A DNA stretch of 64,000 bases, from contig JAPOWQ010000035.1 of NCBI GenBank assembly GCA_026707585.1, forward strand, positions 1-64,000. Direction: 5' to 3'. The notes under the pieces were generated by a model that was not told where the DNA came from, ran no database searches, and saw only the letters and a program-made list of their open reading frames with translations. This DNA comes from Chloroflexota bacterium (lineage in GTDB: Bacteria > Chloroflexota > UBA11872). Positions 5,547-50,266 of this stretch are shown here, piece by piece; the stretch's first letter is position 1, and each line of letters starts with the position of its first letter. The position numbers were made by a program, and so were the translations under genes.

Positions 5547-6353
5547 CTAGCCCGAATGTTTCACGTGAAACATTCGTCCCGGCCAGCGCCGCAGCGCCAG
5601 CACCCCGATCCCGCCGGTCGCCACGGCCGCGCTCACGATCATCGCCAGGCGCAGCCCCTCGCCCACGATGATCGGGTCGGCCCGTATCGACTCGATCCAG
5701 AACCGCCCCACCGAATACGCCGCCAGCACCCCCAGCGCCAGGTCCCCGCGCCGCAACCGTCGTGCAGACCTCGCCACTACCAGTGCCGACGCAAACACCA
5801 CCAGCGCCCACACCGACTCGTACAGAAACGTCGGATGGAACCCGTTCACTTCCAGGTACAGAAGCGGCCGGTATTTTTCCTCGATCGACAGCGCCCACGG
5901 CAGATCCGTCGGCACCCCGAACGACTGTTGGTTGAAGTAATCCCCCCAGCGCGCGACCCCGATCCCCAGCGGCAACCCCACCGCCGCCGCATCGATCCAA
6001 CGCACCAATTCCAGTCGCGCCAGACACGAGTAGATCGATATTCCCAGCAACGCGCCTATCAACGCCCCGTGCAGGGCTACGCCGCCCTCCCAGATCTGCC
6101 ACGCCAGCTCCGGCTCGTCCGCGAAGCGCCGCTCCCACTCAAAGACCAGGTAATACACCCGCGCGCCCGGAATTCCCGCCGCAACCGCCACCACCAGCAG
6201 CGGCAGCGCGTGCTTCGAATCGAGACCAAGCCGCCCCGTCCGCCACCGCGCCACCCACGCCCCCGCCAACACTCCCGCCGCCAGCAACACGCTCCACCAG
6301 CGCAGCACACCCCACTCGGGAACGATGAACGCCGAGTAGGGCTCAGGTATCAA
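5547..6353 (-). CDS. lgt: Prolipoprotein diacylglyceryl transferase
   Basis: Lgt transfers diacylglycerol from phosphatidylglycerol to the lipobox cysteine of prolipoproteins in the inner membrane. The 268-residue product has several membrane helices, the motif GGVALHGALIG (His near 95), GIGVARWGDYFNQQSFG (Arg near 135) and HPTFLYES. Aligned by eye with E. coli Lgt, N146 corresponds to Asp138 and E151 to Gln143, an acid/amide swap at two important positions. The last codons (MFHVKH) are the parS site. It is the last gene of a minus-strand run starting at 9898, 9 bp after the MDR gene. Confidence 0.92.
   Translation of the reverse strand: MIPEPYSAFIVPEWGVLRWWSVLLAAGVLAGAWVARWRTGRLGLDSKHALPLLVVAVAAGIPGARVYYLVFEWERRFADEPELAWQIWEGGVALHGALIGALLGISIYSCLARLELVRWIDAAAVGLPLGIGVARWGDYFNQQSFGVPTDLPWALSIEEKYRPLLYLEVNGFHPTFLYESVWALVVFASALVVARSARRLRRGDLALGVLAAYSVGRFWIESIRADPIIVGEGLRLAMIVSAAVATGGIGVLALRRWPGRMFHVKHSG
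5557..5572. promoter_or_regulatory. parS: parS site 1 (ParB/Spo0J binding site)
   Basis: TGTTTCACGTGAAACA is an exact match to the bacterial chromosomal parS consensus. The dyad symmetry extends to a perfect 24-bp palindrome (5553-5576). It lies inside the 3' end of lgt, so it also encodes a peptide. parS sites usually cluster within a few percent of the genome from oriC. No parA or parB gene is in the window. Confidence 0.9.
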
Positions 6354-46270: not shown

Positions 46271-46302
46271 TCACTCGACCATGGACCGCTCCCAGTGCCC
46301 AA

Positions 46303-46318
46303 TGTTTCACGTGAAACA
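46303..46318. promoter_or_regulatory. parS: parS site 2 (ParB/Spo0J binding site)
   Basis: TGTTTCACGTGAAACA is again an exact parS match, here intergenic, 32 bp past the upstream stop and 168 bp before the next ATG. It lies at the left edge of a unit duplicated at 47.7 kb. Confidence 0.9.
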
Positions 46319-46486
46319 TCCCGGCGAGATTCGGCCAGCTTGACTTGCCAAAGAACCCGTAGCCTCGGCGGACTGATCTGCACTGTTCCGTGGAGCGCGC
46401 CGCGTTCTGCGATGATGCCGCTCGAACCGGTCGGCGGCCTGCCCGGCATCCGCCTGGGGCGCTGATCTCTCGCAGGGGGTGGAGAC

Positions 46487-47623
46487 ATGTCAGCCAGCGA
46501 TCTCCCGGCCTTTCGCATCGGCGTCGTTGGATGCGGCGGGATCAGCTCCCGCCACGGTCGCGCCGGCCTGGAGTCCGAAAAGCTCCAGCTCGTCGCGTGC
46601 TGCGACATCCGCGAATCGGTGGCCCGCGAATGGGCCGAGACGTACGACTGTGAAGCCTGGTACACCGACTACGAGGAGATGATCCGCGATCAGGACCTCG
46701 ACGGCGTGGTCCTGGCCACCTGGCCCAACCAGCACCGCGAACAGGTCGAGCGCTGCCTCAACGCCGGCGCCCGCAACATCCTCAGCGAGAAGTCGCTGAC
46801 CGCCGACGGGCAGGAAGCGCTGGAATTGGCGCAACTCGTCGAGGACGCCGGCGCGTACCTGATGGAAGGCTTCATGTACCGCCACCACCCGTTTGTCGCC
46901 GAACTCGAGCGCCAGGTGGCCGCCGGAACCATTGGCCAGATCGACTCCGTCAGCTCCAAGTTCAGCACCTTCGATCACGAAGACGAGAGCCCCGACGACC
47001 CGAATCGCAACTGGCGCCGCGATCCTGAGCGGCTGGGCGGCTCGCCCTGGGATATCACCTGCTACGCGATCAACGCCGTCAACCACTTTGCGTCGATGGG
47101 CGCGGGCGGTCGCGGCACCGGCATAGGGTCGAACCCCGATGGAACGCTCGGCTCCGACGCGAAGAGCCTTGTCGCCGCCAGGCCGACCCGTGTGTGGTCG
47201 GTCGGAAGCCTGAGCAAGGTCTACGGGACGCTGAACCGCCAGTTCGGGCTGATCAAATACGACAGCGGCTGCGTGGGCTACGTGGAAAGCAGCCGGCAGG
47301 CGCATCTCAGCGAGGAACTGCACATCGCCGGCAGCGAAGGCCGCCTTCTCATCCGCCGAGCCTGGCGGCCCCATGCCGAACCGGTGATCGAGCACCAGTA
47401 TGGCAACGGCGAACGGCGGGAAATCCCCGTTTCAGGTGCCGAGATGTACCGGCTGCAGATGGAAAACTTCGCGGACGTGGCCCAGGGCGTCGCCGAGCCG
47501 GTGATGCCGCTGATCCAGACCGTCGTGAACATGTACACCATCGAGGCCACGGTCACCAGTCAGCTCGAAGACCGGCTGGTGGATCTCGAACTTCCGGCCA
47601 GCCTCTTCGAAGAGTCGGCATAG
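46487..47623 (+). CDS. Gfo/Idh/MocA family oxidoreductase, tandem copy A
   Basis: The 378-residue product has RIGVVGCGGISSRHGRAGLE, then NILSEKSLTADGQEA in which the usual EKP is EKS. The domain-linking EGFMYRHHPFVAELERQVAA and GGSPWDITCYAIN follow. It is likely an NAD(P)-dependent sugar dehydrogenase or dehydratase-like enzyme. AGGGGGTGGAG just before the ATG is a good ribosome site. It is one of two copies about 87% identical. Confidence 0.9.
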   Translation: MSASDLPAFRIGVVGCGGISSRHGRAGLESEKLQLVACCDIRESVAREWAETYDCEAWYTDYEEMIRDQDLDGVVLATWPNQHREQVERCLNAGARNILSEKSLTADGQEALELAQLVEDAGAYLMEGFMYRHHPFVAELERQVAAGTIGQIDSVSSKFSTFDHEDESPDDPNRNWRRDPERLGGSPWDITCYAINAVNHFASMGAGGRGTGIGSNPDGTLGSDAKSLVAARPTRVWSVGSLSKVYGTLNRQFGLIKYDSGCVGYVESSRQAHLSEELHIAGSEGRLLIRRAWRPHAEPVIEHQYGNGERREIPVSGAEMYRLQMENFADVAQGVAEPVMPLIQTVVNMYTIEATVTSQLEDRLVDLELPASLFEESA

Positions 47624-47710
47624 CCTGCGAGCAGGCTTGAGCGTCGAGTCTCGCAGCGCGGCGGCCGCTACTGGCCCAACGTCACCCACGGCACGGCTCG
47701 CGAGCCCCGA

Positions 47711-47726
47711 TGTTTCACGTGAAACA
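47711..47726. promoter_or_regulatory. parS: parS site 3 (ParB/Spo0J binding site)
   Basis: TGTTTCACGTGAAACA, inside a perfect 22-bp palindrome (47708-47729). It lies 167 bp before the next ATG and 1408 bp from parS site 2, at the matching place in the second duplication unit. Confidence 0.9.
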
Positions 47727-47892
47727 TCGAGGCGAACATCCGACAGTTCCGACTGCGCAGGAGTCCCGAGCCTCGGCGAGCTGACCGAGACGGTTCCGTG
47801 CGACGCGCCGCGTTCTGCGATGCTGCCCGTTGAACCGGTCGGCGCCCTGCGCGGGACCCGTCGGGCTCGCTGATCTCTCAGGGGGTGGAGGA

Positions 47893-49029
47893 ATGTCAGC
47901 CAGCGATCTCCCGGCCTTTCGAATTGGCGTCGTTGGATGCGGCGGAATCAGTAACAGCCACGGTCGCGCGGGCCTGGCGTCTGAGAAGCTCCAGCTCGTC
48001 GCCTGCTGCGACATCCGTGAATCCGTGGCCCGCGAATGGGCCGACACCTACGACTGCGAAGCCTGGTACACCGACTTCGAAGAGATGATCCGGGACCAGG
48101 ACCTGGACGGCGTGGTCCTGGCCACCTGGCCAAACCAGCACCGCGAACAGGTCGAGCGCTGCCTCAACGCCGGCGCCCGCAACATCCTCTGCGAGAAGTC
48201 GCTGACCGGGACCGGGCACGAAGCCTGGGAGCTCGCGCAACTGGTCAAGTCCGGGGGCGCGTTCCTGATGGAAGGCTTCATGTACCGCCACCACCCGCAC
48301 GTGGCCGAACTGGAGCGTCAGGTGGCCGCGGGCACCATTGGCCGGATCGACTCGGTCAGAGCCACCTTCAGCGCCTTCGATCCTGAACCCGAAAGCCCCA
48401 CGGATCCGAATCGCAACTGGCGGCGCGACCCCGAGCGCCTGGGCGGCTCGCCCTGGGACGTCACCTGCTACGCGATCAACGCGGCCAACCACTTTGCGTC
48501 GATGGGTGCGGGCGGACGCGGCACTGGCAAAGGATCCAATCCCGAAGGAACGCTCCGTTCCGACGCGAAGAGCCTCGTCGCCGCCCGACCGACCAGGGTC
48601 TGGTCGGTGGGGAGCATGAGCGAGGTCTACGGCACCCTGAACCGACAGTTCGGCTTGATCGAGTACGACAGCGGCTGCGTGGGCTGCGTGGAAGGCAACC
48701 GGCAGGCGCATCTGAGCGAGGAGTTGCAAATCGCCGGCAGTGACGGCCGGTTGGGCATCCGACGAGCCTTTCGGCCGCACGCCGAGCCGGTGATCGAGCA
48801 CCAGTACGGCAAGGGCGAATGGCGGGAAATCCCCATCCCAGGCGCCGAGATGTACCGGCTGCAGATGGAAAACTTCGCGGACGTGGCCCAGGGCGTAGCC
48901 GAGCCGGTCATGCCCCTTATCCAGTCCGTGGTGAACATGCACACCATCTCGGCGCTGGTCACCAGCCAGCGCGAGGACCGGCTCGTGGACGTCGAACTAC
49001 CGGCAGGCCTGTTCGAAGAGCCGGCATAG
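47893..49029 (+). CDS. Gfo/Idh/MocA family oxidoreductase, tandem copy B
   Basis: This 378-residue copy has RIGVVGCGGISNSHGRAGLA, NILCEKSLTGTGHEAWELAQ and the same EKS variant. Differences from copy A concentrate in surface loops (around TADGQEALE and KFSTFDHEDE of copy A); the core is unchanged. A GGGGGTGGAGG ribosome site precedes ATG 47893. The pair may have split substrate ranges or may raise dosage. Confidence 0.9.
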   Translation: MSASDLPAFRIGVVGCGGISNSHGRAGLASEKLQLVACCDIRESVAREWADTYDCEAWYTDFEEMIRDQDLDGVVLATWPNQHREQVERCLNAGARNILCEKSLTGTGHEAWELAQLVKSGGAFLMEGFMYRHHPHVAELERQVAAGTIGRIDSVRATFSAFDPEPESPTDPNRNWRRDPERLGGSPWDVTCYAINAANHFASMGAGGRGTGKGSNPEGTLRSDAKSLVAARPTRVWSVGSMSEVYGTLNRQFGLIEYDSGCVGCVEGNRQAHLSEELQIAGSDGRLGIRRAFRPHAEPVIEHQYGKGEWREIPIPGAEMYRLQMENFADVAQGVAEPVMPLIQSVVNMHTISALVTSQREDRLVDVELPAGLFEEPA

Positions 49030-49099
49030 CTGGCGCGCAGGCTCAGCAAGGCGCGGCGATTGGCCGCCGTCCGCCTCTGGGTGCCAATATGACGCGCCC

Positions 49100-50266
49100 A
49101 TGAGCGCCAACATCACAACCGAACGCGAAGCCACCGAGCTCCTGAGCCGGCTGGTCGCCACGCCCAGCGTCACGCCCGAAGTCGAAGGCGGCACCGGCGA
49201 AGGCGCGATGGCCGACCTCGTTGAGGAGTTCGCCCGCTCCATCGGCGCGCAAGTCGGCCGCCAGGAGGTTTTTCCGGGTCGGGAAAACGTGATCTGCACC
49301 ATTGCCCCCGACGCAGCCGGGCCGCACCTGATGCTGGAAGCGCACATGGACACCGTGGCGCTGGGGCCCATGACCAACGGCCACCAGCCCTACATGGACA
49401 ACGACGGCCGGCTGCACGGCCGCGGCTCCTGCGACACCAAGGGCTCGCTGGCGGCCATGCTGCTGGCGCTCAAGTGGGCCGCCGGGGTATCGGAGCCGGC
49501 CGGTCCGCTCACCGTGGCCGCGGCCGTGGACGAGGAAACCGGCAGCGCCGGCGCCAAGGCGTTGCCCGAATCCGGGATCAGTGTCGACGGCGCAATCGTG
49601 GGCGAACCCACGAGCTTGGAGGTGGTTCGTTCCCACCGCGGCGGTCGCTATTGGCCTCTCATCACTCACGGTACCGCCGTCCACAGTTCCACGCCCGAAC
49701 TCGGCGACAACGCCATCCTCCGCATGGCCGACGTCTTGCACGTCCTCCGAGAGGAATACGGCCGGCGCCTGTCCGGCCGCACGCACCCGCTGGTCGGCAA
49801 CTCGTCCTTCTCCGTCGGCATCATCAAGGCCGGAACCTCATTCAACATGGTTCCCGACCTTTGCGAAGCCATCATCGAGCGCCGCCAGATCCCCGGCGAG
49901 TCCGTCGACGACGTGGAAGCGGAACTCGAGGAAGTTCTCAACATCGCGCGCCGCCGCCATCCCGACCTGCGTGTGGAAGTGCAGGCACCGTTTGTCTTCG
50001 GGGACGTGCTGGACACTCCCGCGGACGCCCCCATCGTGAAGGTCGTGCGAGACGCCGTTACCGACGTCTGCGGATCGGCCAACGTAATCGGTGTGTCCTA
50101 CGGCTCCGACGCTGCAACATTGGCCGCCGCCGGTATCCCCAGCGTGCTCTGCGGCCCCGGCGACATCGCCTACGCGCACAGCGCCGACGAGTTCGTGCCC
50201 ATGGCGGAAGTCGTCCAGGCGGCCGAGATTTACGCGCGCGCCTGGAAGCTCTTCGCCGCCGCCTGA
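49100..50266 (+). CDS. M20-family metallopeptidase (ArgE/DapE/acetylornithine deacetylase type)
   Basis: The 388-residue product has the zinc ligands of M20 enzymes: His-x-Asp in MLEAHMDTVALG, Asp in GRGSCDTKGSLA, Glu-Glu in AVDEETGSAG, and the late His in IAYAHSADEF, with a dimerisation domain between. It hydrolyses an N-acyl amino acid or related amide; the substrate is not fixed by sequence. The stop overlaps the sulfatase ATG (TGATG), so the two are co-translated. Confidence 0.92.
   Translation: MSANITTEREATELLSRLVATPSVTPEVEGGTGEGAMADLVEEFARSIGAQVGRQEVFPGRENVICTIAPDAAGPHLMLEAHMDTVALGPMTNGHQPYMDNDGRLHGRGSCDTKGSLAAMLLALKWAAGVSEPAGPLTVAAAVDEETGSAGAKALPESGISVDGAIVGEPTSLEVVRSHRGGRYWPLITHGTAVHSSTPELGDNAILRMADVLHVLREEYGRRLSGRTHPLVGNSSFSVGIIKAGTSFNMVPDLCEAIIERRQIPGESVDDVEAELEEVLNIARRRHPDLRVEVQAPFVFGDVLDTPADAPIVKVVRDAVTDVCGSANVIGVSYGSDAATLAAAGIPSVLCGPGDIAYAHSADEFVPMAEVVQAAEIYARAWKLFAAA

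Follow-up and report, generated by a model that had tools for sequence, protein, structure and literature searches.

In chromosomal ParABS systems with multiple ori-proximal parS (chromosome-segregation) sites, site numbers can be high, with about 20-23 sites in Streptomyces coelicolor and Listeria innocua (reviewed in PMC7333895). The growth of parS clusters and the wide variation in site number among species are open questions (PMC7333895; PMC5815017). The ParB residues that specify parS as opposed to Noc sites have been described, including the Noc set Q173/R201 (PMC7383237), and in Pseudomonas aeruginosa, ParB at its native level represses the genes that adjoin the intergenic sites parS3 and parS4 (PMC5521831). 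The locus that we describe here shares with multi-parS chromosomal ParABS systems a canonical 16-bp parS, one parS-type ParB encoded next to dnaA, and sites that lie near the origin by synteny. Unlike in the reviewed systems (PMC7333895), one site here has a traceable origin in a tandem gene duplication, which left a scar at its junction and for which one-copy relatives exist. In its head-to-tail repeat, its truncated downstream gene at the junction and its dN/dS of ~0.2, the locus resembles an ordinary tandem gene duplication with internal deletion of the kind that yields Gfo/Idh/MocA paralogues; it differs in that the duplicated unit took a centromere site along.

The repeat lies in the window (i.e., the whole 64,000-nucleotide stretch of DNA from a Chloroflexota bacterium that we analyzed) and consists of two direct-repeat units, each made up of a parS, a leader and a 378-codon gene for a Gfo/Idh/MocA oxidoreductase (copies A and B), with a start-to-start distance of 1406-1408 nt (Table 1). 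Both parS sites are intergenic, and the distance from parS to the oxidoreductase start codon is ~165 nt in each unit. The units are 91% identical across a 300-nt stretch from the end of leader 1 into the beginning of gene A (46468-46767), and 74% identical over the leader with its parS. An earlier note on this sequence had described a parS-oxidoreductase tandem repeat, and this description was confirmed: both parS sites are perfect, the repeat is direct, and the two proteins are identical at 328 of 378 residues (87%). Both proteins contain PF01408 and PF22725 (a Rossmann NAD-binding domain and a GFO_IDH_MocA C-terminal domain) above the curated cut-off, and among solved structures, a sugar 3-ketoreductase (3rbv) is the best relative of copy A. 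With dN at 0.078, dS at 0.42 and 32% of synonymous sites differing (dN/dS ~0.2), the copies have diverged under constraint. The contig that carries dnaA and parB also holds an older, third paralogue (G000:C8:7561-8659; L162), which shares 69% DNA identity with copy A, and in the genome of one relative (L006) this older paralogue adjoins a homologue of the upstream oxidoreductase.

Table 1 Features of the duplicated parS locus and of its surroundings in the window.
Feature	Position	Strand	Evidence or remarks
Upstream gene, different Gfo/Idh/MocA subfamily, 365 aa	45173..46270	+	PF01408 8.4e-20
parS, unit 1	46303..46318	.	exact match to palindrome TGTTTCACGTGAAACA
Leader 1, drifting part	46319..46405	+	66% identity to same 88 nt in leader 2
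Leader 1, conserved part	46406..46486	+	TCTGCGATG...GAACCGGTCGGC...GGGGGTGGAG; nearly gap-free in all 15 leaders
Gfo/Idh/MocA oxidoreductase copy A, 378 aa	46487..47623	+	PF01408 6.5e-22, PF22725 1.2e-12
M20 peptidase relic between units (peptidase nt 532-578)	47651..47697	+	aligned to the window's own peptidase gene
parS, unit 2	47711..47726	.	exact match; perfect in 4/4 two-copy genomes
Leader 2, drifting part	47727..47813	+	comparison with leader 1
Leader 2, conserved part	47814..47892	+	leader alignment
Gfo/Idh/MocA oxidoreductase copy B, 378 aa	47893..49029	+	PF01408 1e-20; B copies one clade 100/99
M20-family peptidase, next gene	49100..50266	+	PF01546 1.6e-31, PF07687; nt 532-578 (49631-49677) = relic source
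Third window parS, in 3' end of lgt	5557..5572	.	exact match; lgt 5550-6353 minus strand, PF01790 6.7e-51

Three perfect parS sites occur in the window, where shuffles predict 0.01 at up to two mismatches, and nine occur in the genome, where a reversed-pattern control returned none. The genome's single ParB (the one PF02195 protein) is encoded adjacent to dnaA on contig C8, which is not the window's contig. When ORFs from the window and from the other parS contigs were mapped to a complete relative (OY282448, dnaA at 800 kb), 41 fell within 600-1000 kb and none within a control region at 2.10-2.48 Mb. By synteny with OY282448, and thus indirectly, the window appears to lie near the replication origin. 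Two parS sites of the genome (on C49 and at C8:81050) had no match in this mapping, and some neighbours of parS sites in this and related genomes map to ~1.08-1.30 Mb, so the parS domain may be wide. Aligned to Caulobacter ParB (6t1f), the ParB has R at position 173 together with T179, K184 and S201, and not the Noc set, which indicates parS-type specificity (R173). Canonical ParB loading at two neighbouring ori-proximal parS sites is our best reading of these data. The third parS in the window falls inside the coding sequence of lgt (prolipoprotein diacylglyceryl transferase), so this site also encodes part of a protein. The window opens (1-1982) with a 16S rRNA gene that is truncated by the window's edge; RNase P RNA and a tRNA come next, and Rfam detected no 23S rRNA in the window.

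The first reading of the sequence had missed a relic, 47 nt long, of the M20 peptidase gene downstream; it lies between the two units. Within the window alone, this relic aligns with a score of 39, close to the highest of 1000 shuffles (41). Compared with the peptidase of their own genomes, the corresponding relics are 90% identical over 40 nt in L011 and 83% identical over 47 nt in L006, and each of the four two-copy genomes (the window, L006, L008 and L011) has a relic between A and B. The relic marks the junction of a tandem duplication. We collected orthologues by a genome-wide search of Chloroflexota metagenome-assembled genomes (MAGs) placed in the window's genus, and 11 genomes hold the gene: four have two copies, four have one gene with parS (L012-L015), and three have one gene without parS and a leader of ~120 nt (L007, L009 and L010). 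Two genes and two parS sites are present in the window, L006 and L011, while the fourth two-copy genome (L008 and L018, two contigs of one MAG with B across the gap) has parS before B only. The flanking upstream and peptidase genes are the same in all of these genomes, including the seven with one copy. The one-copy and two-copy states that the earlier note proposed to look for in relatives therefore both exist (seven and four genomes, respectively), and four independent assemblies, the junction scar and the one-copy relatives give good support to its claim that parS was copied in a tandem duplication.

Our preferred explanation of the locus as a whole, to which we assign a probability of roughly 85%, is an in-place duplication that included parS and left a scar, followed by ParB loading at both sites, purifying selection on parS and carriage of the oxidoreductase genes as passengers. 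In an ancestor within the genus, a canonical chromosomal parS close to the origin would have lain upstream of a Gfo/Idh/MocA gene. A head-to-tail duplication of ~2 kb would have started just before parS, taken in the leader and the gene, and ended within the 5' half of the M20 peptidase gene, and a later deletion would have removed most of the truncated peptidase copy, leaving the 47-nt scar directly before the second parS. This history builds on what is observed at the locus, namely the duplication, its scar, the one- and two-copy states, the conservation of parS and ori-proximity by synteny. From these observations we infer that ParB would nucleate at both sites, as at the other seven perfect parS sites of the genome. 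The extra parS would then provide one more ParB loading point in a centromere region that is presumably already redundant, and purifying selection would keep it perfect.

Both oxidoreductase genes start ~165 nt from a perfect parS, so the earlier note was right, as a matter of anatomy, to place two metabolic genes directly beside parS. ParB spreading from the two sites might repress or regulate both genes, with a dosage- or cell-cycle-tuned metabolic switch keeping parS in place. The intergenic position of both sites upstream of the start codons fits this idea, and the repression of genes next to parS3 and parS4 in P. aeruginosa provides a precedent (PMC5521831). We nevertheless consider such regulation unlikely. 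Orthologues that lack an upstream parS (L007, L009, L010 and copy A of L008) keep the proximal ~80 nt of the leader, and parS is not confined to promoters, given that the third site lies inside lgt and several others lie in long open frames (not gene-called). The absence of parS before the same gene in four genomes gives no sign that the gene needs parS. Thus, although this locus shares with parS3/parS4 an intergenic parS close upstream of genes, parS here is dispensable before the orthologous gene in four genomes. Most likely, the oxidoreductases would be passengers rather than ParB-regulated genes.

The leaders themselves consist of two parts. In the 88 nt after parS, 34% of positions differ between the window's two leaders, whereas the final ~80 nt upstream of the gene show high conservation across all 15 leaders, whether or not these contain parS, and GAACCGGTCGGC is nearly invariant. 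The leader drift reported previously therefore applies to the upstream part only, and drift across the leader is uneven. The conserved part is probably a promoter, operator or 5' UTR. A 17-codon frame (MMPxEPVGxxxGxRxxR) is open in all 15 leaders, yet it is not coding-like because second codon positions vary most (184/317/208 pairwise differences at codon positions 1/2/3); an operator or promoter is thus more likely than a leader peptide. We found no consensus promoter or terminator at either unit, and no known RNA family in the leaders.

The one-copy genomes L010 and L012-L015 form a clade (X) in both the peptidase and the upstream-gene trees, and every two-copy genome belongs to clade Y (the window, L006, L007, L008, L009 and L011); the X/Y split is clear in the peptidase tree. 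In the oxidoreductase tree, the B copies fall weakly outside all A genes (78/68); this placement would make the duplication older than the clade split and would call for multiple losses of B. Grouping B with the Y-clade A genes was not rejected (p-AU 0.40), and in the segment from parS to the conserved block, B matches the A leaders from the window and from L011 best (67-73%, versus 49-56% with clade X). We read this as a duplication in the Y lineage, with the one-copy Y genomes having either branched earlier or lost B. Divergence among the B copies (dS 0.13) is lower than among the A copies of the same genomes (0.32-0.37), so B has probably moved by recombination as well. In L012 (6001-7208), the single-copy A gene and its 3' spacer are Y-type, while the upstream leader and neighbouring genes are X-type, a mosaic that points to homologous recombination between related species. 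Together, the closeness of the B copies and the Y-type gene in X-type flanks suggest that recombination moved pieces of the locus between lineages. The segment with the A-side parS of L006 barely aligns with the others (51-56%), and this parS may have been regained or replaced. We also considered A/B chimeras, formed by recombination between the copies, in the one-copy genomes, but found no B-like tail at 61 diagnostic sites.

The unusual likeness of B copies between genomes and the gene-scale exchange in L012 could also mean that the second unit is a xenologue (i.e., a diverged copy from another lineage that recombined beside A, with no duplication in place). This origin is improbable, to about the same degree as ParB regulation, because each two-copy genome has a fragment of the resident peptidase gene between A and B, and because the B leader most resembles the A leaders found in the window and in L011. 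These two features fit in-place duplication with later recombinational spread of the two-copy allele.

Following the comparison that the earlier note had suggested, we set leader and synonymous divergence against parS: the leaders are 66% identical over the 88 nt next to parS and dS is 0.42, while parS shows no difference between units (16/16 identical). At the rate of the adjacent 88 nt, such identity has a chance of ~0.001; the same paired A/B comparison in L011 gives 0.002, and the two give ~2e-4 jointly. We relied on this paired comparison and did not use a hypergeometric test (p = 3e-6) as proof of selection because its rows had been chosen for having a perfect parS. No decayed parS with one or two mismatches was found at the locus in the 15 leaders, where the site is either perfect or missing with its whole block. 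Furthermore, for all nine parS sites of the window's genome, the flanking DNA can be aligned (~71-95% identity) to parS sites in G019 and/or G022. Because sites are perfect or absent and all nine have positional orthologues, purifying selection on parS as a site class is well supported by these comparisons. Individual A-side sites are dispensable, as parS is missing before copy A of the two-copy L008 and in the one-copy L007, L009 and L010. The earlier inference of selection on parS thus stands for the identity of the sites and the lack of decayed versions, but this selection is not absolute.

Less probable still is a neutral duplication in which the second parS is perfect through the youth of the event or through gene conversion. 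The B side taken alone would be compatible with this, since 81% of the adjacent 88 columns are invariant across the four genomes and an intact 16/16 then has a p of only ~0.03. However, the adjacent A/B segment is down to 66% identity with synonymous divergence at 0.42, conversion limited to 16-18 bp amid diverging neighbours is implausible, the 15 leaders hold no decay product with one or two mismatches, and perfect parS sites are kept at positional orthologues across the genus. Finally, although the genome is a draft in 75 contigs, a collapsed or duplicated repeat, the outcome that the earlier note named as its refutation, can be discarded with near certainty because the same arrangement occurs in the separate assemblies L006, L011 and L008/L018 (there across two contigs) and the copies differ at a third of synonymous sites (dS about 0.4).

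The duplication falls within a lineage-specific, genus-level rise in parS number. Between 5 and 22 perfect sites are present in 11 of 13 genus members (G000, G018-G029), the other two being a 76%-complete genome with none and a distant complete genome with two; the sister genus has 1-3 and the other family of the order 0-1. Allowing two mismatches left the within-family contrast unchanged. Among 45 parS sites in three genomes (the window's, G019 and G022), within-genome flank homology was found only at this duplication (window and G019) and at one pair in G022. That pair, on contig C21 (L195:1447-1462 and 1508-1523), consists of two perfect parS sites at a distance of 61 bp, set in a 61-nt tandem repeat that is imperfect (~75%), and is a second, independent and much smaller parS duplication. 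On contig C214 of G020, a perfect site and a site with one mismatch lie 52 bp apart. We considered and rejected the idea that a mobile or repeated element had spread parS, as the flanks of the nine sites share only a CGAA/TTCG tendency. The proposal that parS clusters grow by gene duplication therefore holds for one of the nine sites and not for the others, whose flanks are unrelated. Tandem duplication is a real but minor source of parS sites, and because it explains a minority of them, the majority of gains would require a different route, such as de novo origin by point mutation.

It is conceivable, if doubtful, that the centromere of this genus is expanding and that parS-carrying duplications were fixed because an added ParB loading site was favoured, with the metabolic gene hitchhiking. 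If so, selection would favour parS gain, and the number of gene copies in the origin region would be in part a consequence of site gain. With relatives that have one site, two sites or none, the locus offers a natural, datable case that bears on the question of how parS clusters grow. It shows that tandem duplication is one natural way for a bacterial centromere region to gain sites, even though most sites in this genome arose otherwise.
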